From Segetibacter sp. (GTDB lineage Bacteria > Bacteroidota > Bacteroidia > Chitinophagales > Chitinophagaceae), in NCBI GenBank assembly GCA_028288485.1, contig JAQBNO010000034.1, positions 1-64,000 on the forward strand: a stretch of DNA of 64,000 nucleotides. Reading direction: 5' to 3'. Positions 25,701-50,946 of the stretch are shown piece after piece. Each line of letters opens with the position of its first letter. Position 1 is the first letter of the stretch. A program made the position numbers and the translations under genes. The notes below the pieces were generated by a model. The model did not search any database. It had not been told where the DNA came from and was given only the letters and a program-made list of their open reading frames with translations.

Positions 25701-26226
25701 GTACAGGAGTGCGACGCAAAAAACCTTATGGGGCGGCCCCCAAACCATGCAAATGAACTTTTAGTGCGATCATTTACAGCTGAAGCGGCGTGGCTTCGTT
25801 ATTACAATGGACTCTCCCGATAAACATCCGCGCTTTGTTTCTGAAACCGCTTCGCTGGTTTCAGAATGCCTTCGCCTTCGCCCGGCACCCAACCGGCTGA
25901 TGTCACTTATGCAATAACTGTTGCCAGAAGCGAATATTATAACTCGAACCGATAAAAACAGACACCAACTTTACTCGTTTGTTGCCAGTGGCAATGCTGC
26001 CGGACGGTACCCTTCGGCTTCGCTCAGGGTACCGTCCAGCAGGCTCAGGGTAAAAAATGCTACGCTAAGTTCTATCGAAGAATTAAAAGTTGAACTGAGC
26101 GTAGCAACGATGATTCTTATAGTACAAAAAGCCGGTATCCAAAAAAAAATTAAAAATCAAGACAGCAAAAACGAGTTTATTAATAGAGAAGCCCGATAGT
26201 AGCAATGCAGTCTGGCTAACACAAAA
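25701..26226 (+). repeat. Long interspersed element, copy A (~525 bp)
   Basis: First of three near-copies (with 46516-47010 and 50436-50946), all in the same orientation. It begins GTACAGGAGTGCGACGCAA and contains three hairpins. Hairpin 1 is GAAACC/GGTTTC at 25841-25860. Hairpin 2 is 26000-26012 paired with 26027-26039. Hairpin 3 is TGCTACGCTAAGTTC at 26058-26072 paired with 26092-26106 (14 of 15). A 92-codon frame at 25921-26199 is open here but shifted in copy B, so the element is judged non-coding. It lies between the divergent alaS and M23 peptidase genes. Confidence 0.85.
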
Positions 26227-26342
26227 ACGATCAAGAAGATCAACCTGACAAGAAGAATAGCGGTTTCAACACTAATCATTATTTGCAACAATAATTGCTG
26301 AACTTCGTGCCCTGCTTAAGCTGGAATGAGAAAACGAATTAA

Positions 26343-27314
26343 TTGAAGAAAGTAAAATACTTCTATAACACGCACACACTGCGGTACGAAAAACTGACAG
26401 TGCCTTTAAGAGTAAAACTTTTAAGGGTGTTTGGATTTATTGCAACTGCCCTGGTTACGGCAACTATTATTGTGTGGTTCGGCTTCCGTTACATTGGTTC
26501 TCCAAACGAACGTATTCTGCATCAGCAGATTGAGGATTATGAAGACAATTACGCGCTGTTGAATGAACGGGTAGAGCAACTTCAGCAGCAAATGGCCGAA
26601 CTCGAGAAAAGAGACAACCAGGTATACCGGTCTATTTTTGAAGCAAACCCGATACCCGATAGCGCCAGGGCGAGGCAGTTGGAAATGTCGGAGGAGATAA
26701 AGTTGATACAGCGGCTCGCAGATGATGAACTGGTGAAAAGCCTCACTTGGCAGTTAAATTCCCTGACCGCAAGAGCTGCCGCTCAATCAAAAAGTTATGC
26801 AGAAATTGATGAGATGGTACGGAATAAAGAAAAGTTACTAGCATCGATTCCTGCTATCCGGCCCGTAAGCAGCAAAGATCTTAGCAGTATTGCCTCGGGC
26901 TTTGGAAGCCGCATCGATCCTGTGTATAAAGTATCAAAATTTCACAAGGGGCTCGATTTTGCTGCACCACAGGGCACGCCCGTTTATGCCACTGCCGACG
27001 GTCGCATAAAAACTTCTACCCACGAGGAAGGCGGATACGGCAATCACGTGGTAATAAATCATGGCTACAGCTACGAAACTCTGTACGGCCATATGGTGCG
27101 GATAAAAGTGCATGAAGGACAGTCGATCAAGCGTGGTGAGGTGATCGGTTGGGTGGGCAGTACCGGCAAGAGCACGGGGCCGCATTGCCATTACGAAGTT
27201 CATAAAAACGGCAACGCTGTTGACCCGGTTTATTTCTTCTATAACGACCTTACCCCTGAGCAGTTTGACCGTCTCGTTAAAATTGCGGCGGGAAGTAACC
27301 AAAGTCTCGACTAA
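26343..27314 (+). CDS. M23 family murein endopeptidase, membrane-anchored
   Basis: 323 aa from a TTG start; the N-terminus KKVKYFYNTHTLRYEKL directly before the membrane segment supports it. A transmembrane helix lies at about 29-49, then a coiled coil at about 60-115 with many Gln, Glu and Arg. The LytM/M23 domain is at about 195-300: HKGLD (His201, Asp205), YETLYGHM and PHCHYE (His281, His283). These are the zinc ligands and the catalytic His set, so it should be active against peptidoglycan cross-bridges, or belong to the cell-division LytM group. It is followed on the same strand by the MerR-type gene after 277 bases. Confidence 0.9.
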   Translation: MKKVKYFYNTHTLRYEKLTVPLRVKLLRVFGFIATALVTATIIVWFGFRYIGSPNERILHQQIEDYEDNYALLNERVEQLQQQMAELEKRDNQVYRSIFEANPIPDSARARQLEMSEEIKLIQRLADDELVKSLTWQLNSLTARAAAQSKSYAEIDEMVRNKEKLLASIPAIRPVSSKDLSSIASGFGSRIDPVYKVSKFHKGLDFAAPQGTPVYATADGRIKTSTHEEGGYGNHVVINHGYSYETLYGHMVRIKVHEGQSIKRGEVIGWVGSTGKSTGPHCHYEVHKNGNAVDPVYFFYNDLTPEQFDRLVKIAAGSNQSLD

Positions 27315-27400
27315 TCGGAATCATTTTTCCGCAGAGTTTATTTTTGGTGGTGTCGGGCTATAGAATACGCATTAAACTTCGTTGTCCGAAGGGGCTGCTT

Positions 27401-27418
27401 GATGTCACTCGCATGTAC
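27401..27418 (-). repeat. Short interspersed repeat fragment
   Basis: The complement reads GTACATGCGAGTGACATC, the front motif of the GACATCACC repeat type. It lies in the gap between the M23 and MerR genes. Confidence 0.45.
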
Positions 27419-27591
27419 AGCAACCCTGCATTTGTCGCTTACGTAATTATTTTCTGAACGTATACGAGCACGAGAACCTTGGCCCGAAGTAGAAAGCCGG
27501 CTTTGGGTATGTACTACCTATTAACTAACCTTTTATCCACCGTTAGTGAACACTTAGCAAAAAAAGCGGCTCCATTCATTACTTTTACAAC

Positions 27592-28812
27592 ATGCGGCAG
27601 TTAGACCTTTTCGGCTCACTTTTCGACCCAACACCCCAGGAAGATAAACCAGGGGAAAACCCGGCCGCGCCTGCAAAAGAAGAAAAGGTTGCTGAAACCG
27701 AAGAAACTAAAGAAAGAACCTCGGCCTTATCGGGATTTGCTGCTTCAATGATGGGAGCAAATAAGCTAAAGAAGCCAACCGATCTTCTTACTACAATAGA
27801 CGCGGGTAAAAAAAGTGAAAATACACCACGGCAGCCTATTTCACTTTTTGATGGCACACCGGCTCCAACTTCAGATTCGGTACCACCAACCAAAGAAAAT
27901 ATTTCTATTGCCACCTTGCACGAACCGGAAGCAACGTTCAGGGCTGAAGAAGAAGAATTGGCAACACCAACAGAATTACCGGGTGCTGAAATTGAAGTGA
28001 TCGTTCATCAATCTACTACTAACACCACACCCGGTGAACAGCCAACAATTGCGGAACTGGAAATACCAGCAACTGAGCCACAAGTTGCGATTAATTTAGA
28101 TGTAACAGCTACTGAAGAGGAAGAACCATTTGATACAGCGAAGAATGAAGCTGAATTTATTATTGAAAACAACACTTCTTCAACAAAGGAAGAACCATTA
28201 GAAGAAGAGCCGGAAATCGTTGCTTCAGCAGGCAAAAAAGTTATAGAGAAGAAGCCTGTAACCCCAAAACAAAAAAAAATACCGGCACCTGAACTTGAAA
28301 GAACCGGCGCTGTAATTTTTGACGATGGAAAAATTACGGTTAAACTAAAAAACAAGAGTCCTTTCCCGGCACCGATTGTAAAAGTAAAAAGGGAAAAAGT
28401 TGAAAAGCTGCCTCAGAAAAGAGGTCGTAAATCTTTTAAAGAAATTGATGCAGAGGTTGACCTGATTGAAATTCCGGAAGATGAAATATTATTCCAGAAA
28501 CAATATTATCCTATTAGTGAGGTAGCGAAATGGTTTAGGGTAAATACTTCTTTGCTTCGTTTTTGGGAGAATGAATTTGACGTATTAAAACCGCGTAAAA
28601 ACCGGAAAGGAGACCGGTTATTCAGGCCTGAAGATATTAAGAACCTGCAGTTGATCTACCAATTACTTCGCCAACGCAAATACACCATTGAGGGTGCGAA
28701 AGAGTATATTAAAACCAATAAGAAAAAAGCCGATATCCAGCAACAACTTACCACTACTTTACAAAAGTTTAAAAGCTTTTTACTCGACCTGAAAGCGAAT
28801 TTGCAGCCCTAA
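27592..28812 (+). CDS. MerR-type regulator with long acidic N-terminal region
   Basis: 406 aa, much longer than a plain MerR protein (~130 aa). The first ~290 residues are low-complexity, rich in Glu, Pro, Thr and Lys, and probably disordered. The MerR-like winged helix lies at about 300-375: YYPISEVAKWFRVNTSLLRF, then WENEF, GDRLFRPEDIKNL and the second wing QRKYTIEGAKEYI. A short helix follows. Such long MerR-like proteins are typical of Bacteroidota; their target is unknown. The start MRQLDLFGSLF is retained because of its hydrophobic motif right at the N-terminus. Codon use does not differ visibly from its neighbours. Confidence 0.85.
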   Translation: MRQLDLFGSLFDPTPQEDKPGENPAAPAKEEKVAETEETKERTSALSGFAASMMGANKLKKPTDLLTTIDAGKKSENTPRQPISLFDGTPAPTSDSVPPTKENISIATLHEPEATFRAEEEELATPTELPGAEIEVIVHQSTTNTTPGEQPTIAELEIPATEPQVAINLDVTATEEEEPFDTAKNEAEFIIENNTSSTKEEPLEEEPEIVASAGKKVIEKKPVTPKQKKIPAPELERTGAVIFDDGKITVKLKNKSPFPAPIVKVKREKVEKLPQKRGRKSFKEIDAEVDLIEIPEDEILFQKQYYPISEVAKWFRVNTSLLRFWENEFDVLKPRKNRKGDRLFRPEDIKNLQLIYQLLRQRKYTIEGAKEYIKTNKKKADIQQQLTTTLQKFKSFLLDLKANLQP

Positions 28813-28850
28813 AAGGTTGACAGATGACGGTTGACAGATGGCAATGACGG
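28813..28850 (+). repeat. Simple tract of TGACGGTTGACAGATG units
   Basis: Directly behind the MerR-type stop codon: GGTTGACAGATGACGGTTGA, then CAGATGGCAATGACGGG. A short degenerate tandem repeat of unknown role. Confidence 0.4.
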
Positions 28851-28921
28851 GCATAACCCAGATGACGGAAAGAGTTTTGGCAGGTGGTATAATCCGCAAA
28901 ACGGCCGGACTTAGATTTTCA

Positions 28922-29004
28922 GTACAAGAGTGCGACCCTTCGACGAGCTCAGGGTAAACCGCCACGCTGAATAATGCGTTACAGTACAAGCGAGCGTGGC
29001 AACG
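28922..29004 (-). repeat. 85-bp interspersed element, copy 1 (inverted)
   Basis: On the minus strand it reads CGTTGCCACGCTCGCTTGTA, a 20-30-base spacer, GTGGCGGTTTACCCTGAGC and TCGTCGAAGGGTCGCACTC, ending in CTTGTAC. The same order of blocks occurs at 31211-31292, 40639-40726 and 50278-50364 in the opposite orientation. Confidence 0.75.
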
Positions 29005-29059
29005 GCTGCCAAATTAATAATCAAACGATGGCTACCAAATGGTCCTGCAATTTCTTCTT

Positions 29060-29884
29060 TTATTGAACCACTGAATATATCTCCAGTTGCCCGTCTTTTG
29101 TAAGACAATAGATTTTGCTTCCGTTAAAGTTGATCTTTGTAAACCTGTCCTGGTCGGTGAAAGGTTTAAACGAGAATTGTTGAAGCGTTGCTGGTTTGTA
29201 TAATAAAATACGACTACTATCTCTCGCAGTGATCGTATTCTTGTCAATTACCTGCAAGTCGGATAATTGCAACATGGCGAAATTATTCTTTTTGCCACCG
29301 TAATAATCAAAAACAAATAATCCTTGCCTGGCATCGTATAAATACAATTGACCATCACGGTCATACAAATTAGTAGGTGATGGAACAGCGTCAAAAACCT
29401 GCCTGAAGTCCGTTGACTCTAACAATAGGTTCCCGTTATCATCAATCTTTTTAAGTTTGCTATCCAGCTCGTCGTACAGCCAGATGTTATTATCATAACT
29501 GCTGGTGACGGCAGTTACCTGTAAGATATTCTGCTTACGTAGGTCGATTGTGTTTCGAACATTTAACAACCGGTCGAGTACCGCTACGGTAGCAAAATCC
29601 TTGTAATACACCAACACTTTCAGGGGATTGGTGGCATCTACAGAATAAATCTTTCCAAATCTTCTTACGTCGTTGAAAACTGCAATAGAATCTCCTTTGC
29701 TGTTAACTTTTTTTACCTGGTTAGTGCCAGTAAGCAGGTAGATGTTACCCAGGTTATCGGTTGTAAAATCTGCAATTGGTTGTTCAAATTTTTGTACTAA
29801 TGAAACTTTCAGCAAACTATCCGTTTGACTATAAGCAGCCATAGAAAGCAGGCAATATGTTAATATCGAAATAATTTTTTTCAA
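29060..29884 (-). CDS. Exported beta-propeller-like protein of unknown function
   Basis: 274 aa with a signal peptide (MKKIISILTYCLLSMAAYS). The mature part consists of repeated units such as DNLGNIYLLTG, SYDNNIWLYDE and LYDRDGQLYLYD. These are the strand patterns of NHL/WD-like propeller blades, about five of them. No enzyme motif is seen. It ends close to an interspersed element and starts 3 bases behind the LpxH-like gene's stop, so the two are probably co-transcribed. A link to cell-envelope synthesis is suggested only by that neighbour. Confidence 0.75.
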   Translation of the reverse strand: MKKIISILTYCLLSMAAYSQTDSLLKVSLVQKFEQPIADFTTDNLGNIYLLTGTNQVKKVNSKGDSIAVFNDVRRFGKIYSVDATNPLKVLVYYKDFATVAVLDRLLNVRNTIDLRKQNILQVTAVTSSYDNNIWLYDELDSKLKKIDDNGNLLLESTDFRQVFDAVPSPTNLYDRDGQLYLYDARQGLFVFDYYGGKKNNFAMLQLSDLQVIDKNTITARDSSRILLYKPATLQQFSFKPFTDQDRFTKINFNGSKIYCLTKDGQLEIYSVVQ

Positions 29885-29887
29885 TGA

Positions 29888-30643
29888 TCAGCAGAACTTT
29901 TTTAATTGCGTTTCCTTTCCATCAAACTCTGCGTAGGTGAAGTGCTTGATCCAATCGCCAAGGTTAATGTAGTGGCTTTTGTCAGTCAATTTTATGTCTC
30001 GCGGCAAATGCCGGTGACCGAAAATGAAATAATCATAATGTTCTTTAGCTAACATCTGCCTCGAGAAAATGATCAGCCATTCATTATCTTCTCCAAGGAA
30101 AACGTCATCTGCTGTACCTGTTTTTCTCCGGCTCTTCTGGCTGAAAAAGTTAGCAAGGCCAATCCCCCAGGATGGATGCAAAAGAGCAAACATCATTTGT
30201 GACAGCCTGTTTCGAAAAACGCTTTTTAATAATTTATAACCATGGTCCTCGGGGCCTAAACCATCGCCATGACCTATATAAAACTTTTTCCGATTCCACT
30301 CAAAAGTTTTAGGTTCAAAATAAACGAGGATGTTCAATTCCTTTTCAAAATAACCGCGCATCCACATATCGTGATTTCCAACAAAGAAATGAACAGGAAT
30401 ACCGCTATCAGTAATTTCTGCAAGTTTACCAAGCAATCGCACATATCCTTTCGGCGTTACATGCTTGTATTCGAACCAGAAATCAAACATATCGCCAACA
30501 ATAAAAACGGCAGCGGCTGTAGACCTTATAGACTCTAAAAATGCAACAATTATTTTCTCTCGTTGTAAACTTGCGGCATGATCAGGGGCACCAAGATGAA
30601 AGTCGGATAAGAAGTAAACTTTTTTACCTGCTGGTACTTGCAT
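29888..30643 (-). CDS. UDP-2,3-diacylglucosamine diphosphatase-like phosphoesterase (LpxH)
   Basis: 251 aa. All metallophosphoesterase motifs are present in order: SDFHLG (~14-19), VGDMFDFW (~49-56), VGNHDMW (~88-94), GHGDGLG (~122-128) and FGHRH (~213-217). Length and motif spacing fit LpxH-type enzymes, which split UDP-2,3-diacylglucosamine into lipid X and UMP at the inner membrane. It is likely co-transcribed with the gamma-glutamylcyclotransferase-like gene upstream (3-base gap) and the propeller protein downstream. Another metallophosphoesterase role cannot be excluded. Confidence 0.85.
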   Translation of the reverse strand: MQVPAGKKVYFLSDFHLGAPDHAASLQREKIIVAFLESIRSTAAAVFIVGDMFDFWFEYKHVTPKGYVRLLGKLAEITDSGIPVHFFVGNHDMWMRGYFEKELNILVYFEPKTFEWNRKKFYIGHGDGLGPEDHGYKLLKSVFRNRLSQMMFALLHPSWGIGLANFFSQKSRRKTGTADDVFLGEDNEWLIIFSRQMLAKEHYDYFIFGHRHLPRDIKLTDKSHYINLGDWIKHFTYAEFDGKETQLKKFC

Positions 30644-30646
30644 GCT

Positions 30647-31075
30647 CTAAAATTTACTTTTATGCAAGATAAAATCCATAATATCTCCTGAAGCTATTAT
30701 AGGTTGATCTTCTATAATTCCATTATACCAATAAATCCATGCGGTAGCTTGTTGACCATTATAAAAAATCTCAGCCAGTTCCCTATTAAATAATTTCGGT
30801 TCTCCTTCTTCAGGATTTACTCCTTCATAAGCATCTAGCTGCTCAATTGCCCAGCTAAAGTCGTCGGCATTTTTTAAGTCATACAATTCGCCAACAATAA
30901 AAGCCTCATCCGTAGTAGGTAAGGCAGCCGGGTAACTGCCCAAATCATATAAATGCCCCTTGACCCTGGCCTCACTGATCAACGAAAAATACTTGCTTAT
31001 ATAATCATAAGCAGGGTGATGAAAACCACTTCTTAATGAGCCATAAACAAACAGCCTTGTAATATTGTTCTCCAT
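30647..31075 (-). CDS. Gamma-glutamylcyclotransferase family protein
   Basis: 142 aa, one AIG2/GGCT domain. The substrate-binding loop FVYGSLRSG lies at residues 9-17, GHLYDLGSYPA near 40, and the catalytic Glu region around QLDAYEGV near 78. Family members cyclise gamma-glutamyl groups or act on gamma-glutamylamines; the bacterial ones are mostly uncharacterised. It is the first gene of a tight run with the LpxH-like gene and the propeller protein. Confidence 0.85.
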   Translation of the reverse strand: MENNITRLFVYGSLRSGFHHPAYDYISKYFSLISEARVKGHLYDLGSYPAALPTTDEAFIVGELYDLKNADDFSWAIEQLDAYEGVNPEEGEPKLFNRELAEIFYNGQQATAWIYWYNGIIEDQPIIASGDIMDFILHKSKF

Positions 31076-31396
31076 GCTGATAAAGATATTAAACCAAAGG
31101 GATTAAAAATTAGAAGAGATACAAGAGAGTGGAAAATGTTTCATGCTGTCAACTTGTTCAGTCTTTGAAAGTAGGTTACTTGTGATACCAGCTAATCTTT
31201 TCATGGCGTCATCGTTGCCACGCTCGGTTCACAAGTAGTTTTTCATAGCATCGTGGCAGTTTACCCTAAGCTTGTCGAAGGGTCGCAATTACTTTATCCG
31301 CACATCAATAGCGAACTTTAGTTTTCATTGTCAGGCACGTTAATTACTATAAAAGGCTTAACTGCTCACCATGTTAAGTAACTCCGGGGCCTGAAA
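31076..31396. other. Gap holding an interspersed element
   Basis: No gene. Bases 31211-31292 are a copy of the 85-bp element; similarity to the diverged copy at 56747-56850 continues to about 31312. The rest shows nothing of note. Confidence 0.6.
31211..31292 (+). repeat. 85-bp interspersed element, copy 2
   Basis: ATCGTTGCCACGCTCGGTTC, a spacer, CGTGGCAGTTTACCCTAAGC and TTGTCGAAGGGTCGCAATTA. Block order as in the copies at 28922 (inverted), 40639 and 50278. Confidence 0.75.
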
Positions 31397-32032
31397 TTAT
31401 CCATCTATGAGAAAAACAAAGACTTCTTTTGGTCCATGAACTCCAACAACCAGGGTCTTTTCAATATCAGCTGTACGACTTGGGCCTGTGGCAAGCGTTA
31501 TTAAAGAAGGTAATTTCCCGGCATATTTATCTTTCAAAATTTGTAGTCCTTCCTTTATATCATAGACCAGTTGGCTGGTATATGCAACACAGATATGAAT
31601 GGGTGCGTATACGCTTACCGTTCTGCCGCTTGCCTGTGCTGAACTCATGAGCATACTCCCTGTTCTGGCTATTAATAATTCGCAACCCGTAATACTTGCA
31701 TCGCACGAAGCGACGTCTGTTGCTGTAAAATTATTAAAGCCCCAATTAACCAGCTTTTGCCTAATCACTTTCTCATTGCAATAAATTGATTTCAGCTTTT
31801 TTGCCTCGACCAAATGTTGCAGTTGTTCAGCAAGTTCTCTTTCATCCATGCAAAACGAAAACCTTCCAAGTAAACCGGTAAAATTCTCTGCAAATTCAAT
31901 TTCCAGGTCTTTTGTAGAAGGTTGAAAAACACTTGTATTTCCCTCACTTTGTGGAAAAGGAACAGGCACTGGGTTTGCCAGTGCCTGTCTTATTTTTTTT
32001 AATATATTTTCTTTAGCTGATGAAGCTTTCAT
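31397..32032 (-). CDS. LUD-domain protein (LutC/YkgG type)
   Basis: 211 aa. A helical N-terminal part with SAKENILKKIRQAL is followed by the LUD domain, with SITGCELLIARTGSMLMSS near 128 and the C-terminal ATGPSRTADIEKTLVVGVHG. In lactate-using bacteria the LutC protein works with LutA and LutB in lactate oxidation. Here LutA/LutB are absent and the gene follows ftsH by 9 bases on the same strand, so it is probably co-transcribed with ftsH and its role may differ. Assignment to the domain is firm, the pathway is not. Confidence 0.85.
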   Translation of the reverse strand: MKASSAKENILKKIRQALANPVPVPFPQSEGNTSVFQPSTKDLEIEFAENFTGLLGRFSFCMDERELAEQLQHLVEAKKLKSIYCNEKVIRQKLVNWGFNNFTATDVASCDASITGCELLIARTGSMLMSSAQASGRTVSVYAPIHICVAYTSQLVYDIKEGLQILKDKYAGKLPSLITLATGPSRTADIEKTLVVGVHGPKEVFVFLIDG

Positions 32033-32041
32033 AGTATTTCA

Positions 32042-34111
32042 TTAACCTATGTTACCGGTTATGTCTATCACTGTTTTTTCTGGTGGAGCACTTAATTCCG
32101 TATTTACGTCCTGGTGAACTGCCACATCCAGTAATTTCTTCTCTTCAAAAGGTCTTTTACCGATTAACGCTTCTACATCACTTTGAAACAATACTTCTTT
32201 ATCCAGAAGTTCCTTAGCTAATACTTCTACTTCTCTTTTCTTTTCAGTTAAAAGTTTTTTAGTACTAACATAGGCTTCCGCAATCAGGCCTCTTACTTCC
32301 TCATCAATCATTTTGCCTGTCTCTTCACTGAATGGCTTGGTAAAAGTGTTCTCCTGTGTAGGATCATAATAACTGATATTGCCGATTTTGGCATTCATCC
32401 CGTAAACAGTTACCATTGAATACGCCATTTTGGTGATCTGTTGAAGGTCATTACTTGCACCTGTAGAAATCTTTCCAAAGAAAATTTCTTCCGCTGCACG
32501 TCCACCCAGCGTCATACAGATCTGGTCGAACAACTGGTCTGTATTATATAGGTATTGTTCTTTAGGAGTATACTGAGCATATCCCAAGGCGGCAGTACCG
32601 CGTGGAACAATAGTAACTTTCAGCAAAGGATAAGCATGTTCCAGAAACCATCCGCAAATGGCGTGACCAGCTTCGTGATATGCAATGATTTCCTTTTCTT
32701 CCGGAAGAATAATTTTGTTTCTCTTTTCCAAGCCACCTATTACCCTGTCAATAGCGTCCTGGAAATCACTCATGTCGACAGATTCTTTGTTTTTCCTTGC
32801 TGCAATCAAAGCAGCCTCATTACATACATTCGCAATATCTGCACCGGCAAAGCCAGGTGTTTGCTCAGCAAGTTTATGAATATCTAATGTTTGAGATATC
32901 TTAATTGGTTTAAGGTGAACTTTAAAGATTGCTTCACGTCCTTTAACATCAGGGCGGTCAATAGAAATTTGCCTGTCGAAACGTCCTGGTCTTAATAATG
33001 CGGTATCTAAAACATCGGGGCGGTTAGTTGCTGCAAGAATAATGATGCCGATATCAGTTCCAAAACCGTCCATTTCTACCAGCAATTGGTTGAGGGTATT
33101 TTCTCTTTCGTCGTTGCTCATAATGGCGTTTCTTCCACGAGCACGTCCTATTGCATCTATCTCATCTATAAAAATAATACATGGAGCTTTTTCCCTGGCT
33201 TGTTTAAACAAATCTCTTACGCGACTTGCACCCACACCTACAAACATTTCCACAAAATCACTACCACTTAAACTAAAGAATGGTACCTGTGCTTCACCAG
33301 CCATTGCTTTAGCCAGCAACGTCTTACCTGTTCCGGGAGGCCCCACCAATAAAGCACCTTTTGGAATTTTACCTCCTAAAGCGGTGTACTTTTTAGGGTT
33401 TTTCAGGAAGTCAACTATTTCCATTACTTCCACTTTGGCTTCATCCAAACCTGCAACATCACCAAAGTTTATGTTAACCCGCGTTCCTTTTTCAAATAAA
33501 GTAGCCTTTGATTTGCCAATGTTGAATATACCGCCGGGACCTCCGCCACCACTTGGGCCACCCATTTTACGCATCAGTAATACCCATAAACCAACAAAGA
33601 GTAAGATGGTTACTAAAGTATTGGCTACCGGACCAAACCATTCGCCTTCGTTTGTTACATTTTCAGCAACCTTTTGAATTCCAAGTGGGTTAGCTACCGA
33701 ATCTTTAAAAAACTGGTTTTGACTTGCATTAAAGCTTTCCCAATCAGTTACAGTAAATTCAAAATGCGGACCCTTGCTCGCAGCGGAAGCCTTTTTTATT
33801 TTACTTGCATAAAAAGGTTTGTTCAGGCTTTCCTGTTTTATATAAACCCTCACCAACTCTTTATTTTTTATCAGGTCAAGCTTCTCTACATCTCCTTTTG
33901 AAAGCATTTGCTGCCTGAACTCGAGTTCAGAAGTACGAACAGCGTCGGGAGACATATTGAATAGATTAGCGCTTATTAGTACTATCGCGATAATTGCATA
34001 AATCCAATAGATGCTGAATTTAGGACCTTTGCGCCCTGATTTCTCATCACCTGTGGGTACTCCTGGTATATTTCGAAAATCTTTTTTTATTTTTTTATCG
34101 TCTTGTGCCAT
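32042..34111 (-). CDS. ftsH: ATP-dependent zinc metalloprotease FtsH
   Basis: 689 aa. A transmembrane segment lies near residues 32-50, a periplasmic domain follows, and a second transmembrane segment near 162-180. The AAA domain has Walker A GPPGTGKT at 257-264, Walker [13 protein letters not shown] near 314 and the second region of homology with RPGRFDRQI. The protease domain has HEAGH at 479-483. It degrades unassembled membrane proteins and some regulators as a hexamer. A Gly-rich linker ([11 protein letters not shown]) separates the membrane part from the AAA domain. It lies between rsfS and the LUD gene in one minus-strand run. Confidence 0.97.
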
Positions 34112-34173
34112 ATTTCTTCATCTCTGTAAGGTAGAAAGTTTCCTTTTTTTATTTTTTCTAATTATAACAGTAG

Positions 34174-43461: not shown

Positions 43462-44529
43462 ATGTTAGATAAGCTTGAAGCAATAAAGGGCCGGTTTGAG
43501 CAGGTTGGCATGGGCTTGACGAACCCGGAAATTATTGGTAATCAAAAAGAATTTCAACGACTAAGCAAAGAATACAGGAGCCTTGAGAACATCGTAAAGC
43601 CGTTTGAAGAATATAAAAGAGTGTTATCGGATTACGAATTAAGCAGGGAAGCACTGAACAGCAACGATGATGATATGAGAGAGCTGGCAAAGATGGAAAT
43701 GCCGGAACTTGAAGAAAAGAAAGAAAGACTTGAAAAAGAACTAACAAAACTGTTGATACCAAAAGACCCGCAGGATGACAAGAATGCAATACTTGAAATT
43801 CGTGCAGGAACAGGTGGAGACGAAGCAAGCTTGTTTGCCGGAAACCTGCTGAATATGTACCTCCGGTACTGCAGCAAACGGGGTTGGAAAACGGCGGTTG
43901 TAAGCGAAAGTGAAGGAACCGTAGGAGGTTATAAGGAAGTCATGGTCGAGGTGCAGGGCGAAGATGTATACGGCACTTTGAAATTTGAAAGTGGAGTTCA
44001 CCGGGTACAACGGGTACCGAATACTGAAACACAGGGCCGGGTTCACACTTCGGCAGCAACAGTAGCCGTAATGCCAGAAGCAGAGGAAATTGACTTTGAA
44101 TTAAAGGAAAGCGACGTGAAAATGGAAACTGCGCGAAGCGGTGGCGCTGGTGGACAGAACGTAAACAAAGTGGAGACAAAGGTCTTGCTAACGCATATTC
44201 CTACCGGTGAAGTGGTAGTTTGCCAGACGGAAAGAAGCCAGTTGGGTAACCGCGAGAAGGCCATGACGATGTTACGATCAAGGTTGTATGAAGCACAGGT
44301 ACGTAAACAGGAAGAAGAGATTAGCCGGCACAGGAAAACCTTGGTAAGTACAGGAGACCGGAGTGCCAAAATAAGAACGTATAACTGGCCGCAGGGAAGA
44401 GTGACCGATCACAGGATCGGGTTAACCTCGTACAACCTGGACGCGGTAATTAACGGCGACATTGACGAATTTATTGAACAATTACAGATGGCAGAAAATG
44501 CAGAAAAAATGACAAACCAGGGAAGTTAA
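43462..44529 (+). CDS. prfA: Peptide chain release factor 1
   Basis: 355 aa, full length. The GGQ motif that triggers peptidyl-tRNA hydrolysis is at 230-232 in [35 protein letters not shown] before it is the RF1/RF2 core, and the length and N-terminal coiled-coil fit RF1 (UAA/UAG) rather than RF2. There is no in-frame TGA frameshift site as found in prfB. A decayed small gene follows. Confidence 0.95.
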
Positions 44530-44574
44530 CGTCACCTCTTTTATTACTGCTTTCGCGGCGGCTCGATCTTTAAC

Positions 44575-45083
44575 ATGGTTATTCATAAAATAATAATTAT
44601 AGTAGAAGATCTCAAGAACCTGGTAAGACAGCATGCCGCAGTCGCCATTATTAATAATCCTGCCATTCCTGCTGAAAGAAATGAAGAGGTTGTGGCTGAG
44701 GCTTCAAGTTCAATAGTAGCCGGGTTAAAAACTGCAGTTGCAGGCGGAAACACAGATAGTGTTGTTGGCTTTTTTAACGGAGCAGCCACTGTGCGGTAAG
44801 TTCTCCCCTTACACAGAACATCCAAACCGGATTTATTCAATACCTCTCCAATAAGTTCAGGCTCGACCACGGTATCGCTGGGCAAATTGCAGCAGCTGTG
44901 ATTCCGATGGTGTTACAAAATTTGTATACAAAACAAACGATCCTAACGATAGTAGCTTCTCCCCCGGTGGAATATTAGGAAACCTGACTGGAGGATCGGC
45001 TGCTGCGGTAAGCTGGATAATTTGGTGGAGGTGATAACCAGGATGGTGAAATGATGGGTAAAATTAAGGGCATGTTTAACTAA
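44575..45083 (+). pseudogene. Frameshifted DUF937-like gene
   Basis: Three consecutive frames together give one recognisable small protein of about 165 residues. The first frame reads DLKNLVRQHAAVAIINNPAI up to GFFNGA (44599-44790). After a shift come TQNIQTGFIQYLSNKF and AAAVIPMVLQNL (about 44812-44925). After another come NDPNDSSFSPGGILGNLTGG (about 44937-45000). After a third comes GGGDNQDGEMMGKIKGMFN and a stop at 45083. At least three frameshifts make an intact gene unlikely. The family is a small Bacteroidota protein of unknown function with Gly-rich spacers. Confidence 0.75.
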
Positions 45084-45353
45084 TTGACTATAAGACACTG
45101 TTTTAATAATTGTTAAAACCCAGCACCTGGATATGCTACCGCACTTGTAAAAAGAAAATAATTAATGTTTAAACGCTTACAGTACTGGTAGTGACGAAGA
45201 TTTTCGTTCTATCGCCTTAGTCGACTTTCATTTAATGAAATTCAATTAACAGCTTTGCGGTATTAAGAAAAGAGATGAGATGAAATTGGCACAGACTTTG
45301 TCATATATAATATAGATTACAGATAATAAGTAGTCAAATTTTCTCATAAGCAG
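45084..45353. other. Gap behind the pseudogene
   Basis: No gene. A short coding-like fragment (STGSDEDFRSIALVDFHL) at about 45183-45245 ends in a stop and has no start of its own; probably chance or an old relic. Confidence 0.35.
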
Positions 45354-45767
45354 TTAGTTTTGGTTGCGGCCCTGATTTCCATCGGGGCCTATTTTTTTGC
45401 GGTAATATTGCCGTACTGCAATTACACCCGCAATGCTGCCAATAGTATCAAATAAAATATCAATCACATCAAAAGACCTCCCTCTTACAAAGTCTCTTTG
45501 TACAAATTCCATAAACACCCCATATATTATCGCTAACAAGGCTATCCTATTACACCAGGACGTGATGAAACCTTGTTCTGCCGATGATTTAACCAAAGGG
45601 TAGCAAAATAAAAATGAAAGCAGAAAAAACATTCCCAGGTGGATCAACTTATCGAAATAAGGAATATCGAAATAATCAATAGAGGGAACGTCATCCCCGG
45701 GCAGAGCAAGCAAAACAACTGAAATTAAAAACCAGGTAATTGCGGGGAGAAAAGACACAACTTTCAT
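45354..45767 (-). CDS. VanZ-like membrane protein
   Basis: 137 aa with four hydrophobic segments. It has the VanZ family pattern: DKLIHLGMFFLLSFLF, YGVFMEFVQRDFVRGRSFDV and DILFDTIGSIAGV. VanZ gives low-level teicoplanin resistance in enterococci, but most family members, like this one, have no known role; small acidic residues in the membrane helices are typical. Single gene. Confidence 0.85.
   Translation of the reverse strand: MKVVSFLPAITWFLISVVLLALPGDDVPSIDYFDIPYFDKLIHLGMFFLLSFLFCYPLVKSSAEQGFITSWCNRIALLAIIYGVFMEFVQRDFVRGRSFDVIDILFDTIGSIAGVIAVRQYYRKKIGPDGNQGRNQN
45368..45397 (+). terminator. Plus-strand terminator inside the vanZ 3' end
   Basis: GGCCC at 45368-45372 pairs with GGGCC at 45385-45389, followed by TATTTTTTT. 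On the minus strand these bases code for the last residues of the VanZ protein. It could stop read-through coming from prfA and the pseudogene. Confidence 0.4.
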
Positions 45768-45836
45768 AAATAGTTTTACGCGAAATAAGTTGCAAAAGTA
45801 ACTGAAAAACTCCCGCCGACTTTAAGCGCAGATTAT

Positions 45837-46385
45837 TTAAGGCATTAAAACGGTATCAACTACATGAATAACCCCATTTGACTGGCTAATATCTTTTATC
45901 GTTACTTTACCTATTCCACCCTTTTCGTCAGCCACCAATACATCTTTTCCCTGCATGCTAAATGTAAGTTGGGCTCCCTGTAAAGTTTTGGTTTTATAAG
46001 TTCCGCCGCCTTGTTTAATGGAAGCAATAAGCGTACTGCTTAAGATCTTTGATGAAATTATATGATACTTCAATATATTGCTTAAAGCTTCTTTGTTTTG
46101 AGGTTTTAATAGCATGTCTATTGTGCCCTTCGGTAATTTTTTAAATGCCATATTTGTTGGTGCAAACACGGTATAAGGACCTTGACTTTTGAGCGTGTTA
46201 TTTAGCTCTGTTGTTTTTAAAGCAGCATTAAGCGTAGAATGGGATCTACTGGTAGTAACATTGTCAGCAATATTTTTTGAAGCTGACATTGCGCTAACAG
46301 CAACTTTTGCCTGAGAAAAAGCACATTTGTAAGTACCTGATAAAAAAGAAAGAAAGATAAATGACCGTAAAAGAATAATTTTCAT
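45837..46385 (-). CDS. Fasciclin-domain exported protein
   Basis: 182 aa with an N-terminal signal (cleavage near FSQ). One fasciclin (FAS1) domain covers about 45-180, with LNAALKTTELNNTLKSQGPY, TVFAPTNMAFKKLP, ILKYHIIS and the C-terminal NGVIHVVDTVLMP. Such domains mediate adhesion or matrix contacts at the cell surface in bacteria. No sorting domain is attached. The sigma/anti-sigma pair is further upstream on the same strand, beyond copy B of the long repeat; whether it controls this gene is open. RskA-type anti-sigma and fasciclin genes do occur together in other genomes. Confidence 0.85.
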   Translation of the reverse strand: MKIILLRSFIFLSFLSGTYKCAFSQAKVAVSAMSASKNIADNVTTSRSHSTLNAALKTTELNNTLKSQGPYTVFAPTNMAFKKLPKGTIDMLLKPQNKEALSNILKYHIISSKILSSTLIASIKQGGGTYKTKTLQGAQLTFSMQGKDVLVADEKGGIGKVTIKDISQSNGVIHVVDTVLMP

Positions 46386-46515
46386 AAAGCTTTTTATATT
46401 GTTGTTTAAATATTATACCAGCAATCACCTGTTGTTGTCGCGCAGTTCCGTCACCTGCAATTGTGCTATCTGAAGCTACCGTTAAATAATGATAAATGTA
46501 GATTAAACAACAAAA

Positions 46516-47010
46516 GTACAAGCGAGCGACGCAAGAAACCTTAGGGGCGGCCGCCCAAGCATTCAAAATGAACTTTCAGTGCGAATTTATAGCTCAAGCA
46601 GCGGTTCGTTATTGCAACGGGACTCCACCCGCTTGTTTCTGAAACCGCTTCGCCGGTTTCAGAATGCCTTCGCCTGGCATCCAACCGGCTGATGTCACTT
46701 ATGCAATAACCGTTGCCGGAAGCGAATATTATAACACCAACCGATAAAAACAGACACCAACTTTACTCTTTTGTTGCCAGGCAATGCAGCCAAACGGTAC
46801 CCTTCGGCTTCGCTCTGGGTACCTTTCGGCAGGCTCAGGGTAAAAAATGCTACGCTAAGTTCTATCAAAGAATTAAAATTTGAACTGAGCGTAGCAACGA
46901 TGATTCTTATAGTACAAAAAGCCCGTATCAAAAAAAAATGAAAAATCAAGACTGCAAAAACGAGTTCATTAGTAGAATGTTATATAGTAGCACCGGCGCC
47001 GGGTACAAAA
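46516..47010 (+). repeat. Long interspersed element, copy B (~495 bp)
   Basis: Begins GTACAAGCGAGCGACGCAAG and ends near GGGTACAAAA. Same order of parts and same orientation as copies A and C. Hairpin 1 is GAAACC...GGTTTC. Hairpin 2 is 46790-46802 paired with 46817-46829. Hairpin 3 is again TGCTACGCTAAGTTC with its partner, 14 of 15 bases. A two-base deletion relative to copy A breaks the frame that is open in A. It lies between the fasciclin gene and the anti-sigma gene. Confidence 0.85.
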
Positions 47011-47123
47011 GATCGCCATCCTTGAAGGACAGCTTTTAGAAAAAAAGAATAAACAGAACATGAAACAGCCGGAAAAAAAGTGGGTGAAGTGTAAACGACG
47101 GTAAAAACGGATGTAAGGAAAAA

Positions 47124-47948
47124 TTATACCTTTCCCATTACAAATAGCTGTGTCATTGTTGGAGTGGCGCTACCTCCTGCATTTTCAAGGGTAATAGCAA
47201 AAGCCTGCGCATAAGGAACATTTTTCATTTTGCAAATACTATTACACGAAGGATCGAGCATGCCCGCATCAACAGGTTTTCCATTTACTAATGCCCAAAG
47301 TTGGTATTGTTTACCCGCAGCGGGAAGTGGCAGCTTATTAGGCATTATATACACATCTTTGCTCTGAGAGTGCCAGAAAACGGTAGCAAGATGTTGTGGC
47401 TTTCCCGGAACTCCCGGCATTTTTATCATAGCCATTTCAGTATCGGCCATCATTCTTGATGCAACTTCCCATTCCCGTAAATGTGTTTGATAAACCTGGT
47501 TGCTCGACGCTAACGTATTTCTTTCGGTTAGCAATGACTGGTAAGCGCTGTTTTTCCGGCTGTATTTATTATATAAATAGAAATTCAACGCAGTGCTGCT
47601 AATTGCAAGAATTGTTGATGCAGCAGCGAGAATCCTCCATTTGCGGAAGAAAGTTATATGAACAACTGAATTTCCTTCTTCATTAGGAGATAAGGAAAAT
47701 ACGGGGGATATAGTGTGACGGTCTTCTTCATGAATAGCCGCCATTATTTTCGATTTGACAAAAGGGGGTGGGGCAACTGCATTTTCAAAAGCCTGTTCTT
47801 CAATTAAGACAGAAAACTCCATTATAGCATCTTCTACTTCAGGATATTGAAGACGAAGCGTCTCTACTTCAGCAATTTCTTCGGAGTTAGCCAGGCCCAG
47901 CACGTAGCTTTCTATTATCCCAGATCGTATGTAAGCCTGTATATCCAA
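47124..47948 (-). CDS. Anti-sigma factor (RskA-type)
   Basis: 274 aa from a TTG start, 1 base behind the sigma gene's stop. The N-terminal ~85 residues form a sigma-binding helical domain (SGIIESYVLGLANSEEIAEV). A transmembrane segment lies near 108-128 (KWRILAAASTILAISSTAL). The periplasmic part ends with the RskA C-terminal domain: HLATVFWHSQSKDVYIMPNK, then QYQLWALVNGKPVDAGML. It should hold the ECF sigma factor of the next gene inactive at the membrane until an envelope signal releases it. Confidence 0.9.
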   Translation of the reverse strand: MDIQAYIRSGIIESYVLGLANSEEIAEVETLRLQYPEVEDAIMEFSVLIEEQAFENAVAPPPFVKSKIMAAIHEEDRHTISPVFSLSPNEEGNSVVHITFFRKWRILAAASTILAISSTALNFYLYNKYSRKNSAYQSLLTERNTLASSNQVYQTHLREWEVASRMMADTEMAMIKMPGVPGKPQHLATVFWHSQSKDVYIMPNKLPLPAAGKQYQLWALVNGKPVDAGMLDPSCNSICKMKNVPYAQAFAITLENAGGSATPTMTQLFVMGKV

Positions 47949-47949
47949 C

Positions 47950-48456
47950 TTATGGTTTTATAACTTGTTTTAATTGAATTAGGGCTGTTCGCAATCGTGT
48001 TTTAACTGTACCTAACGGTATCCTTAGCATCTTAGAAATTTCATCTTGCGTAAATCCTTCGAAATAAGAGAGCTCAATTAAAACCCTGTAATCATCTTTT
48101 AATTTATGCACTATCTTTCTCAAGCCGATTTTATCAGTATTCGTTTGAGTACTCCCGGCAGCATCGTAAACATTTTCTGTCAGTTCGCGATTCTGCTGGC
48201 CCTGCTGGTAATTTTTGCTCCTTAAAGCATCAATGCTCGCATTACGGGCAACATTTAACATCCAGGTAAATAAACGTCCCTTTGTTGTGTCGTAAGTTTC
48301 AATTTGTCGCCATATTTTTATAAATACGTCCTGCAATATATCACTCGCTATTTCCCTATCGGGTATAATACCGAGAATAACAGAATACAACGAACCGGAA
48401 TAATGATCGTATAAATAACTGAATGCCGACTCCTGACGTTGCTTTAGCATTATCAC
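47950..48456 (-). CDS. RNA polymerase ECF sigma factor
   Basis: 168 aa. Region 2 has the DILQDVFIKIWRQI and GRLFTWMLNVARNASID segments. Region 4 has YFEGFTQDEISKMLRIPLGT and VKTRLRTALIQLKQ. The start is uncertain: GTG at 48456 cuts into the first helix of region 2. The frame is open upstream to 48495 with only a CTG (48492) as further candidate, which would add NTGTTYQEGEL and give a more usual N-terminus. It is paired with the RskA-type anti-sigma factor and probably responds to envelope stress. Co-transcribed, with 1 base between stop and start. Confidence 0.92.
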   Translation of the reverse strand: MIMLKQRQESAFSYLYDHYSGSLYSVILGIIPDREIASDILQDVFIKIWRQIETYDTTKGRLFTWMLNVARNASIDALRSKNYQQGQQNRELTENVYDAAGSTQTNTDKIGLRKIVHKLKDDYRVLIELSYFEGFTQDEISKMLRIPLGTVKTRLRTALIQLKQVIKP

Positions 48457-48566
48457 GAGTTCGCCTTCCTGGTATGTGGTGCCCGTATTCAGATAGCGGA
48501 GTTAGAGAAATGGTTAAAGGGCGACGGCTGCTTTATGTACGAAAAGCAATTAGCCCCGGATGTTGT

Positions 48567-48944
48567 TTAGGAAATTAGTTTCTGATATGCCGCTGCAGTC
48601 ATAAGCTCTTCAAAGTCTGCAAGGTTAGAAACGGTCATTTTTATCATCCAGCCCTCGCCGTAAGGATCGGTATTTACTAACTCTGGTTGATTCGATAATG
48701 CAGGGTTTACCTGTGTAATGGTACCTGTGAGCGGCAAAAAGAGGTCACTAACTGTTTTAACAGCTTCAACTGTGCCGAAAATCTCTTCGGCATTCAATGT
48801 TTTCCCTTCACTATCTATATCTACATAAACTATATCGCCAAGTTCGCTTTGAGCAAATTCTGTAATGCCAACTGTTGCAGTATTACCTTCAAGTTTTATC
48901 CACTCGTGGTCTTTGGTGTAGCGTAGATTTTCAGGAAAAGTCAT
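48567..48944 (-). CDS. gcvH: Glycine cleavage system H protein
   Basis: 125 aa, normal length. The lipoyl-lysine is Lys63 in GTVEAVKTVSDL, with the flanking Gly and the WIKLEGNTATVGITEFAQ strand block before it. It shuttles the aminomethyl group between the P, T and L proteins of glycine cleavage. Only gcvH is here; gcvP and gcvT must be elsewhere. It is 51 bases behind the cyclophilin gene. Confidence 0.97.
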   Translation of the reverse strand: MTFPENLRYTKDHEWIKLEGNTATVGITEFAQSELGDIVYVDIDSEGKTLNAEEIFGTVEAVKTVSDLFLPLTGTITQVNPALSNQPELVNTDPYGEGWMIKMTVSNLADFEELMTAAAYQKLIS

Positions 48945-48994
48945 TGAGTTAGTGTTTTATTAATACAAATATTAAACAATTATTTTAAAAGAAA

Positions 48995-49774
48995 CTAATT
49001 AAGCAGCCTGATTCTCATCCGTACATTTTGTAAAGGTCTGTCGCTTCCATCTTTAGGTGTTCGTGCAATTTTATCGATTACATCAAGTCCACTGATAACT
49101 TCACCGAAGACGGTATACGCCTGGTCTAAAAAAGGTGTGCCGCCAATCCTGGCATAGACTTCCCTTTGCTTCTTGCTGTAATTAAAATTTGGGTTAGAAG
49201 CTTTTACCCGCTGGTCGAAAACATTATTCAACTCCTGTTCGGGCATTACCTTTCCGTGAACTATATAAAACTGGCAATTGCTGCTTGCTCTATCCGGATT
49301 ATTGTCGCGGGCTGCCGCCAGTGCTCCTTTTTTATGAAAAAAGTAAGACTTAAACTCGGCAGGAACTCTATTACCTGGTGCCGATCCGGTGCCAAGATGG
49401 ACACTGTCCGGGGCATTTTTACTTAAAGGATCGCCTCCCTGTATCATAAACTGGTCGATAACCCGATGAAACAAGAGACTATCGTAAAACTTCTGCTCAA
49501 CAAGTTTCACAAAATTGTTTCTGTGTAATGGAGTGCTGTCGTATAATTTAGCCACCATTACCCCATAATCGGTTGATATTTCTACCAGCCTTTCTTTTGT
49601 GTTCAATTGTCGCCATGGTTCAGTTACTATCGTGGCCGGTTTTGAAGGTGCTCCAATACTTTTAACCGGAGCTTTTTTAGCAGGTACTTTGCTCTTTGTT
49701 TGCGCCAGTACTCCGCCCGACATTAAAAAAGCCAGCAACGGAATTAATCCTGCTCTGGTAAAAACGCTATTCAT
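48995..49774 (-). CDS. Exported cyclophilin-type peptidyl-prolyl isomerase
   Basis: 259 aa with a signal peptide (cleavage near VLA-Q). About residues 55-258 are a cyclophilin domain with FYDSLLFHRVIDQFMIQGGD, GALAAARDNNPDRASSNCQF and YTVFGEVISGLDVID. It speeds folding of proline-containing proteins, probably in the periplasm. A Lys/Pro-rich linker follows the signal. It overlaps the stop codon of the upstream gene by one base (TAATG), so the two are translationally coupled. Confidence 0.92.
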   Translation of the reverse strand: MNSVFTRAGLIPLLAFLMSGGVLAQTKSKVPAKKAPVKSIGAPSKPATIVTEPWRQLNTKERLVEISTDYGVMVAKLYDSTPLHRNNFVKLVEQKFYDSLLFHRVIDQFMIQGGDPLSKNAPDSVHLGTGSAPGNRVPAEFKSYFFHKKGALAAARDNNPDRASSNCQFYIVHGKVMPEQELNNVFDQRVKASNPNFNYSKKQREVYARIGGTPFLDQAYTVFGEVISGLDVIDKIARTPKDGSDRPLQNVRMRIRLLN

Positions 49775-50118
49775 TAAAGTCCATTTTTTTCAAAATATAG
49801 TAATACGTGGTCCTTTAAAAAGTTTTCCTGTTCGATAAGCTGTAGTGCCGGTATCTCTTTTAATTGTTTAAAATGAGGCCAGCCTTCTTCATCTTTTCCC
49901 TCGAGCAGGTAATACCCGCTTTGGCTTAATAAAGTACAAACAGCCACGTGCATCAGGTCCTGCTTCTGTTCTTTGGTAATCTTCTTCTGTACAAATCCCG
50001 TTTCCTGCATACCAATTAAAAACAGGATAGCCTCCATATCCGGCTTTTTACCAAACCTTTCAACCAGTTTCGCTTCGAGGTTCCACCAACGCGTTTGCAA
50101 ATCATCGCTTACATTCAT
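49774..50118 (-). CDS. Conserved hypothetical protein coupled to the cyclophilin gene
   Basis: 114 aa, no signal or membrane segment, mostly helical (RWWNLEAKLVERFGKKPDME, then FLIGMQETGFVQKKITKEQK). It resembles small uncharacterised Bacteroidota proteins but no named family was recognised. Its stop codon overlaps the start of the cyclophilin gene by one base, so co-translation is likely. A link in function is not known. Confidence 0.75.
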   Translation of the reverse strand: MNVSDDLQTRWWNLEAKLVERFGKKPDMEAILFLIGMQETGFVQKKITKEQKQDLMHVAVCTLLSQSGYYLLEGKDEEGWPHFKQLKEIPALQLIEQENFLKDHVLLYFEKNGL

Positions 50119-50277
50119 AGCGCTGCAAAAATAGGTTCTTCACATGAATAGTTAACAGGGGTTTGGTTACTGTTAACACGATTGATTTTACAGTTGTATG
50201 ATCACACTCCAAGTATGCCAAACACAGTGCGTAACAAAGATTTTTTTTGGGGGGCGGGCAAAAATGCTACTATTTAC

Positions 50278-50364
50278 ATCGTTGCCACGCTCGCTTGTAC
50301 TGTAACACATTATTCACCGTGGCAGTTTACCCCCTGAACTTGCGGAAGGGTCGCACACCTGTAC
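50278..50364 (+). repeat. 85-bp interspersed element, copy 4
   Basis: ATCGTTGCCACGCTCGCTTG, TACTGTAACACATTATTCAC, GTGGCAGTTTACCCCCTGAA and TTGCGGAAGGGTCGCACACC, ending TGTAC. The copy nearest to the inverted one at 28922-29004. Confidence 0.75.
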
Positions 50365-50435
50365 TGCTAACTAATCAGCAATAAGCATGAAGAAGTAGGT
50401 AGTAAGAAAATGAATGGTTGCCTGTTGAAGAAAAT

Positions 50436-50946
50436 GTACAAGGGTGCGACGTAAGAAATCTTCGGGGGCGCCCCCGAAGCATGCAAAATGAAGTTTTAGT
50501 GCAATCATTTATAGCTCAAGCCGCGTGGCTTCGTTATTTCAACCGGACTCCACCCGCTTGTTGCTGAAACCGCTTCGCTGGTTTCAGCATGCCTTCGCCT
50601 TCGCCTGGCACCCAACCGGCTGATGTCCCTCATGCAGTAACGTTGTCAGGAGCGAATATTATAACACCCATCCATAAAACAGGGCACCGACTTTACCCTT
50701 TTGTTGCCACCAGCAATGCAGCCGAACAGTACCCTTCGGCTTCGCTCAGGGTACCGTTCGGGAGGCTCAGGGTAAAAAAAACTGCTAGGCTAGTTCTATC
50801 AAAGAATTAAAAGTTGAACTGAGCGTAGCAACGATGATTCTTATAGTACAAAAAGTCGGTATCCAAAAAAAAATTAAAAATCAAGACAGCAAAAACGAAT
50901 TCATTAGTAGAATGCCTGGCAGCAGCAGTATGCCCGGCTCACAAAA
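50436..50946 (+). repeat. Long interspersed element, copy C (~510 bp)
   Basis: Begins GTACAAGGGTGCGACGTAAG and ends near GGCTCACAAAA. Same parts as copies A and B. Hairpin 2 is 50722-50734 paired with 50749-50761, 12 of 13 bases. Compared with copy A, one pair has changed from G-C to A-T on both sides. Hairpin 3 is partly broken here (TGCTAGGCTAGTTC). Confidence 0.85.

Follow-up and report, generated by a model that had tools for sequence, protein, structure and literature searches.

A composite, non-autonomous repeat of Segetibacter with a folded domain whose pairing seems to be kept in DNA

The first 64,000 nucleotides of contig JAQBNO010000034.1 from Segetibacter sp. (assembly GCA_028288485.1, Chitinophagaceae), hereafter the window, hold three look-alike stretches of about 500 bp, which raise the question of whether they are copies of an interspersed element or of a structured RNA. 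Direct reading of the sequence places copy A at 25701..26226, copy B at 46516..47010 and copy C at 50436..50946, all on the plus strand, as a first-pass annotation of the window had indicated. These stretches are copies of a composite, non-autonomous interspersed repeat, whose ends are the halves of a small repeat of ~85 bp and whose insert of ~430 bp carries a folded domain of 142 nt. With a probability of roughly 60%, the composite is a repeat similar to repetitive extragenic palindromic (REP) sequences or to miniature inverted-repeat transposable elements (MITEs), holding a module that folds as DNA and dependent on a trans-acting enzyme for its movement.

The pairing of the 142-nt domain has persisted while its sequence changed across 15 genera. 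In the domain, a small hairpin (AAGCC/GGCTT) precedes a long stem, which is interrupted by internal loops and leads into a junction bearing two hairpins, a structure derived from one of the 34 sequences of a wide alignment (A3) that spans these genera. In A3, two-sided changes affect 34 of the 41 pairs, and both the number of two-sided cells (326 versus 91.5 in shuffled alignments) and the covariation score (0.613 versus 0.175) were reached by 0/500 shuffles. A genus-level alignment of 39 sequences (A1) exhibits two-sided changes in 17 of 32 pairs and 61 such cells, compared to 13.0 after shuffling (0/500 shuffles reach this number). Sliding the partners abolishes the signal in both alignments. 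A3 holds 34 of 42 distinct sequences, with L042 (a 40-nt match) dropped and L321 (the lowest-scoring full-length sequence) left out; A1 holds 39 of the 59 sequences listed (16/36 and 23/23), collected by BLAST without a covariance model. Outside the helices, fourteen columns are at least 85% identical over the 15 genera.

In the window, the domain occupies 25774..25928 in copy A (E=1.9e-27 with the model R1, and 6.1e-17 with the model R2), 46587..46720 in copy B (1.9e-31 and 1.7e-24), and 50509..50650 in copy C (8.7e-35 and 4.9e-28), always on the plus strand, the last being the top-scoring match in the source genome (G000, 6.4 Mb in 220 contigs). Positions ~71-216 of copy B are 70-83% identical to sequences from congeneric species, and much of the surrounding sequence differs. 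Beyond the genus, a covariance model detects the domain in 17 of 147 genomes of the family, and a second model in at least three of 395 genomes of the phylum, namely G000, G564 from the same family, and G332 from another one; this last number is a minimum, as strict filters were applied and few candidates were scored per genome. Searches of 26 loci against Rfam (E<=1 or 0.5) gave no match overlapping the domain, the six weak matches to unrelated families lying elsewhere in the loci, and the window holds no Rfam match at gathering scores.

The first-pass annotation had proposed a structured RNA as one of two possible identities for the three stretches, a proposal that the kinds of pairs in the domain do not support. 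With the given structure, A3 contains 18 G-U among 1279 standard pairs (1.4%) and 21 A-C mismatches, and with the RNAalifold structure 21 among 1351 (1.55%) and 35, respectively. The corresponding values in A1 are 2.8% (with 25 A-C) and 2.7% (with 35 A-C), and the G-U/A-C ratio ranges from 0.6 to 0.9 on A3 and from 1.1 to 1.3 on A1. RNase P RNA from 29 genomes of the family, analyzed by the RNAalifold method, exhibits 11.1% of G-U pairs and a ratio of 8.3, and the stems of 16 tRNAs hold 41 G-U among 350 pairs (11.7%). The domain, at 1.4-2.8% versus 11-12% in RNase P RNA and tRNA, thus lacks the wobble tolerance expected of RNA helices. The similar rarity of G-U pairs and A-C mismatches suggests that the fold is kept in DNA and not in an RNA of one strand. 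An A-C on one strand corresponds to a G-U on the other, so that neither of them resembles an RNA by itself; this speaks against the main constraint being a function of one strand or the other as RNA.

The terminal loops and the folding energies were also inspected. Single-sequence RNA folds gave 104 hairpin loops, including 50 triloops, 41 of which are TNC, equivalent to GNA on the bottom strand. DNA mini-hairpins with GNA loops have been described as extraordinarily stable (PMC4686876), and these triloops therefore fit a fold kept in DNA. Folding both strands of two copies with DNA parameters yielded -31.9 kcal/mol for the bottom versus -24.4 for the top strand in one of them, and -45.2 versus -41.0 in the other; the domain of copy C (50509..50650) has a DNA fold z of -4.8 on the bottom strand and of -2.7 on the top one.

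The domain also occurs without the ends of the composite, either alone, in tandem, or inside an unrelated element with terminal inverted repeats (TIRs) and 8-bp target duplications. Genome G120 holds ten copies without composite ends, whose likeness stops at similar points as judged by eye, G188 holds four tandem copies that are 254 bp apart, and G332 holds clustered copies among varied open reading frames (ORFs). In G182 (loci L333, L335, and L336), the domain lies inside an element bordered by 24-letter TIRs, GGGTGCATAAAAGTTTTTCGCTTA (up to 4 edits allowed). Exact 8-bp duplications flank three of the five G182 copies examined, out of seven places; in the remaining pair, a contig end truncates one copy, and one copy has as its left 8-mer the letters that the other has as its right 8-mer. 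Over many genomes, 38 of 42 domain copies are outside ORFs of at least 100 aa, and the remaining four overlap such ORFs. Two further features accompany some of these copies: in loci L359 and L360 of G332, they share one orientation per contig and stand beside repeats with CHSEGNEESF-like strings in their ORF readings, and in L063, L290, and L293 of G001, a long hairpin (AAATTTATAGATCAGGCGTTAAGAAATGAAAT...ATTTCATTTTAGCCTGGTCTATAAATTT) is found downstream of the domain, and further copies and genomes hold stretches that resemble it.

As for the composite as a whole, it is present in dozens of copies. BLAST aligns copy B (495 bp) with copy A over its positions 1-461 and with copy C over 1-464, at 86% identity in both cases. 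Against its own genome, copy B gives 46 pieces on both strands, at 40 places once four split copies are joined and two 26-bp matches are set aside, a lower bound given that the best 40 of 267 first-look candidates were scored. A 32-mer from the right end has 43 matches on both strands (none for its reversed control), and the central-domain model R1 has 51 among the best 150 of 1470 candidates scored, with a weakest E of 7e-4. Several composite copies sit at contig ends, and ten of the 40 own-genome copies (L031-L040) are partial or split, although they were kept in the copy alignment and in the test of the 15-bp stem discussed below.

Evidence that copy B is absent at the orthologous site in relatives comes from five genomes of the same genus, where no core-bearing element is found between the orthologous flanks. 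These flanks are only 61-127 bp apart in G005, G006, G008, and G009; in G007 they are separated by 783 bp without the core, and the sole BLAST match of this genome to the element sits on a different contig. G005 carries a composite with the same right-hand join. A 182-aa ORF (45837-46385, minus strand) adjoins copy B and, given the distance of 61-127 bp between the flanks, is missing together with it from those four genomes. The part of the first-pass annotation that described an interspersed, non-autonomous element is thus borne out by the dozens of copies, the absence at the copy-B site in these five genomes, the lack of an Rfam match, and the lack of a linked transposase; the last point rests on the listed lengths of ORFs neighbouring the copies and on a search for Y1_Tnp genes described below.

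The flanks reported as common to the three copies, a left motif and a right end of the ACAAAA type, are real, yet each of them is one half of a smaller repeat. This repeat of ~85 bp occurs solo in hundreds of copies in several, though not all, genomes of the family, mostly between genes. It comprises GCTGAATA, a spacer of ~17 letters, a highly conserved 19-bp core (GTACAAGNGTGCGACGCAA) that forms the left terminus of the composites, and then GCTTAATAG, GCCGG, and CAAAAAA motifs, all at near-constant spacing. Allowing up to two mismatches, the core has 487 matches in G000 (one for the reversed control) and 650 in G001 (none for the control), and eight relatives hold 158-650 copies each. At least one match was found in 41 of the 99 genomes searched, G000 included, some of them with only one or two, which is the level of the reversed control; among 39 genomes from other families of the order, one holds a single match. 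The named carriers among the matches listed belong to the Chitinophagaceae (for example to Segetibacter, Limnovirga, Foetidibacter, Pinibacter, Hydrotalea, Niabella, and Lacibacter), and include Segetibacter aerophilus and Limnovirga soli.

With genes called as plain ORFs, 57 of 59 cores in 800 kb of G000 are outside ORFs of at least 110 aa, though such ORFs make up 80% of the DNA, and in the named loci this is the case for 136 of 147 cores, such ORFs making up 85%. The A-run side often adjoins the 3' end of a gene read in the opposing direction (116 cases, at a median of 82 nt and a mode of 40-60), and twelve head-to-head inverted pairs, 80-205 bp apart, occur among 206 cores. The analyses of inverted pairs, ORF bias in named loci, gene ends, and orthologs cover 80 of at least 115 named stretches. 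A role as a conserved regulatory site was rejected: among 48 cross-genome pairs of homologs, the repeat stands beside both genes in six, two of them with the same end and orientation, and beside only one in 27. Orthologous genes rarely share the repeat, which therefore turns over. An uptake sequence is likewise unlikely because of the long conserved span and the intergenic bias.

The left ends of copies A, B, and C correspond to cores with one mismatch each (25701..25719, 46516..46534, and 50436..50454, plus strand). Their right halves, which vary among copies, lie at 26187..26226, 46976..47010, and 50911..50946 on the same strand, directly after the right-end 32-mers (26155-26186, 46944-46975, and 50879-50910). 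The window also holds solo cores at 8391..8409 (minus strand, no mismatches), 17976..17994 (minus, three mismatches), and 62115..62133 (plus, three mismatches, variant GTACAAGTGAGTGACACAA), another one beside copy C in the opposite orientation (50282..50300, minus, three mismatches), and two in tandem at 28922..29002 (plus, three mismatches each), the second of which has an arm, AGCGTGGC, that pairs with the upstream GCCACGCT. Such pairing with an upstream arm (GCCACGCT or GCCACGGT, TGCTACGCT) is observed for the variants GAGCGTGGCAACG and GAGCGTAGCAACG, found at 28984-29002, at 50282-50300, and in the 3' part of the composites, but not for the main type of the repeat.

Comparison of solos with composites places the ~430-bp insert at one fixed position of the small repeat, after ...GACGCAAG. 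To the right of the insert the small repeat resumes as AAAAGC, TAAAGC, AATG, or GATG, and solos, too, vary at this point. In the 24 composites that have both ends together with their flanks, the inserts are 83% identical, whereas the right halves reach 61%, the same value as 73 solos, with 58% for shuffled sequences (150 random pairs per set); the right halves thus differ among composites as they do among solos. The right motif GCCGG..CAAAA is present in 12 of the 24 composites, in 44 of the 73 solos, and in about two of 73 shuffled sequences. The upstream GCTGAATA motif occurs in 5/24 composites and 31/73 solos (about eight in shuffled sequences), and its lower frequency in the composites weakens the account of a simple insertion into intact solos. 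These data are best fitted by repeated insertion into different small repeats at the same position, the alternative being that the right halves of the composites diverged through loss of constraint. No TIRs or target duplications were seen in the composites of the window. Two origins for parts of the composite were considered and discarded. The letters of the right half look codon-like, but insertions of one or two bases between copies shift the frame, as judged by eye. Group II introns start with GUGYG and the core contains GTGCGAC, but Rfam gave no match over the composites, either in the window at gathering scores or in copy B at E<=1.

The hairpins on which the first-pass annotation had based its case for a conserved fold are a different matter from the 142-nt domain, which lies nearby and had been overlooked. 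The GTACCC...GGGTAC hairpin exists in copies A, B, and C (in copy B at 46795..46823, plus strand, as CGGTACCC...GGGTACC), and the two-sided change proposed beside its arm is real in the letters, which read GGAC/GTCC in A, GAAC/GTTC in C, and AAAC/GTTT in locus L005. However, the arm is found in this context in only four of 40 loci (A, B, C, and L005), most of them reading TTGCGACCC, so the change is confined to few copies, and a copy-by-copy check found the outer positions paired in 8 to 27 of 53 hairpins listed; this hairpin has, for these reasons, not been kept across the family. Palindrome units of the type CCCTTCGGCTTCGCTCAGGGTA(C/A) vary in number in this region among L001-L040, with four in L021. 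The 15-bp stem (46848..46896, plus strand, in copy B) also exists, but its pair types in 40 copies reveal one-sided changes only and no covariation, and its 3' arm in copy B runs on, by eye, into a diverged stretch resembling the small repeat (GAACTGAGCGTAGCAACGATG...AGCCCGTATC...AAAA). The proposal that a fold has been kept in evolution is consequently supported for the 142-nt domain and not for these two hairpins.

Under the reading of a non-autonomous repeat with a DNA-folded module, the fold would be kept for a single-stranded or cruciform form of the DNA, as in REP/RAYT systems, IS200/IS605 elements, and integron attC sites. A protein that moves or processes the element would recognise the folded DNA, and the module, mobilised by a trans-acting enzyme, would have spread on its own as well as inside other repeats that carried it along. 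Several observations weigh against this reading, some of which concern the fold itself. The number of further pair types is unexceptional (in A3, 156/500 shuffles reach it), helix 4 is paired in 84.9% in A3, and helix 3 in only 83.5% in A1, with the own-genome copies partly decayed. The yardsticks for G-U pairs are RNA families only (RNase P RNA and tRNA), and G-U depletion would also follow if both strands acted as RNA, or from arm-templated repair. The small repeat exhibits no covariation in 241 copies, which led to the rejection of an RNA role for it and means that the ends may owe their movement to a different mechanism from that of the fold. The flanks in the relatives, moreover, are only 65-71% identical, so that the junctions are not readable exactly.

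The search for an enzyme adds to these objections. G000 contains one intact Y1_Tnp gene, with no small-repeat core near it, and one remnant. R2 gave no match at E<=0.1 around 31 Y1_Tnp loci and just one match of 10.4 bits (E 0.37) around 21 further ones, many of which have the YIHxNP signature, with ~1.5 kb examined per side where the contig allows. Y1_Tnp genes occur in 30 of the 36 genomes tested and are absent from G120, G185, and G188, which hold 3-10 copies of the domain. A resident Y1 transposase was accordingly rejected as the mobiliser, which was not found among the 52 loci examined.

Other explanations account for part of the same evidence. The domain might be a structured RNA, either cis-regulatory or a part of 3' untranslated regions, transcribed from one strand and spread within the repeat. 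The very strong covariation and the conserved junction positions favour this view, as does the mostly intergenic location, with 14 of the 35 copies whose neighbours are both known lying between convergent genes; the shortage of G-U pairs (1.4-2.8%, with a G-U/A-C ratio of 0.6-1.3 against 11% and 8 in RNase P RNA of the same family), the lack of Rfam matches overlapping the domain, and the lack of a constant gene arrangement, seen with the neighbouring proteins not identified, make it improbable. A hairpin working as RNA on both strands, such as a bidirectional terminator or an mRNA 3'-end protector between convergent genes, would explain the G-U depletion, as the fold would be needed on both strands, and would suit those 14 copies, together with the description of REPs as mostly downstream of genes in one source (PMC3733652). 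Nevertheless, 21 of the 35 copies lie elsewhere, a multi-branched fold with conserved internal positions exceeds what a terminator needs, and a T-run directly after the domain was not seen by eye in most copies, so this explanation is unlikely.

A process without function has also to be weighed, in which each arm of a palindrome templates the repair of the other (quasi-palindrome correction) and pairing is kept neutrally. Such copying would give frequent flips, for example from C-G to G-C, and almost purely Watson-Crick pairing, and both are observed; on the other hand, the fourteen non-helix columns that are conserved over 15 genera and the covariation of arms ~100 nt apart speak against it, and it is considered quite improbable. 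Still less credible is that the composites are the decayed remains of a known insertion sequence, even though their distribution is of a mobile type and the own-genome copies are partly degenerate. When the genes near small-repeat cores are clustered, none of the 14 largest groups is a transposase-like family, a search of plasmid and phage records with 475 bases in distant mode gave no match, and two loci from other genera with listed ORFs hold none longer than 79 aa within the repeat units.

Compared to known systems, the repeat with its DNA-folded module shares with REP/REPIN-RAYT systems its short, intergenic, palindromic, multi-copy, and non-autonomous nature; the 51 matches in G000 and the 38 of 42 copies outside ORFs are those of a multi-copy intergenic palindromic repeat. 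Like REP/RAYT repeats or attC sites, it is one in which a fold of the DNA seems to be the conserved signal. Integron attC sites work as single-stranded DNA, their fold mattering more than their sequence. Unlike them, the domain has no attC-type end boxes recognisable by eye, and no integrase search was run. REP hairpins resemble, in the accounts of two sources, the single-strand structures recognised by Y1 transposases (PMC3733652; PMC6006769). The domain differs from them in its 142 nt and multi-branched fold, compared to a REP hairpin of 21-65 nt as described in PMC6006769, and in that a GTAG/GGAG foot was not noticed in its alignments, though no systematic search was made. No domain copy was found around the Y1_Tnp genes examined, and because this linkage to a transposase fails, the domain is not filed under REP-RAYT.

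Subclass 2.6 of TnpA-REP has been described as occurring in Bacteroidetes, with atypical secondary structures elsewhere in the genome and a YIHxNP signature (PMC6006769), and YIHxNP-type Y1 proteins are present in several genomes of the set, but the domain was not found around their genes. CGTC-tagged REPs are palindromes that have been reported from five phyla, Bacteroidetes among them (PMC3733652), and the core of the small repeat holds CGTC on one strand, but this repeat lacks covariation. MITEs have TIRs and target duplications, as does the G182 element with its 8-bp duplications, whereas no such TIRs were seen in the composites of the window, which end in halves of another repeat. A description of this Chitinophagaceae repeat system was not found in the open-access papers searched. 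A more daring proposal, tentative and rather doubtful at present, is that the 142-nt domain represents a new class of element folded as single-stranded DNA, branched and with GNA-loop hairpins, present in two families of Bacteroidota, recognised by an enzyme, and able to travel on its own or within mobile repeats unrelated to it; its covariation would then resemble that of an RNA up to the point where G-U pairs are counted.

A functional RNA is commonly regarded as proven by covariation, which is very strong in this domain, yet with G-U pairs nearly absent the paired molecule would seem to be DNA. Counting G-U against A-C, with RNase P RNA or tRNA as the yardstick, is a cheap test that could serve for further repeat-based candidates for structured RNAs. 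For the Chitinophagaceae, the analysis exposes a large repeat system that is real, widespread, and non-autonomous, with hundreds of copies in some genomes, and poses the question of which enzyme reads its folded DNA domain.

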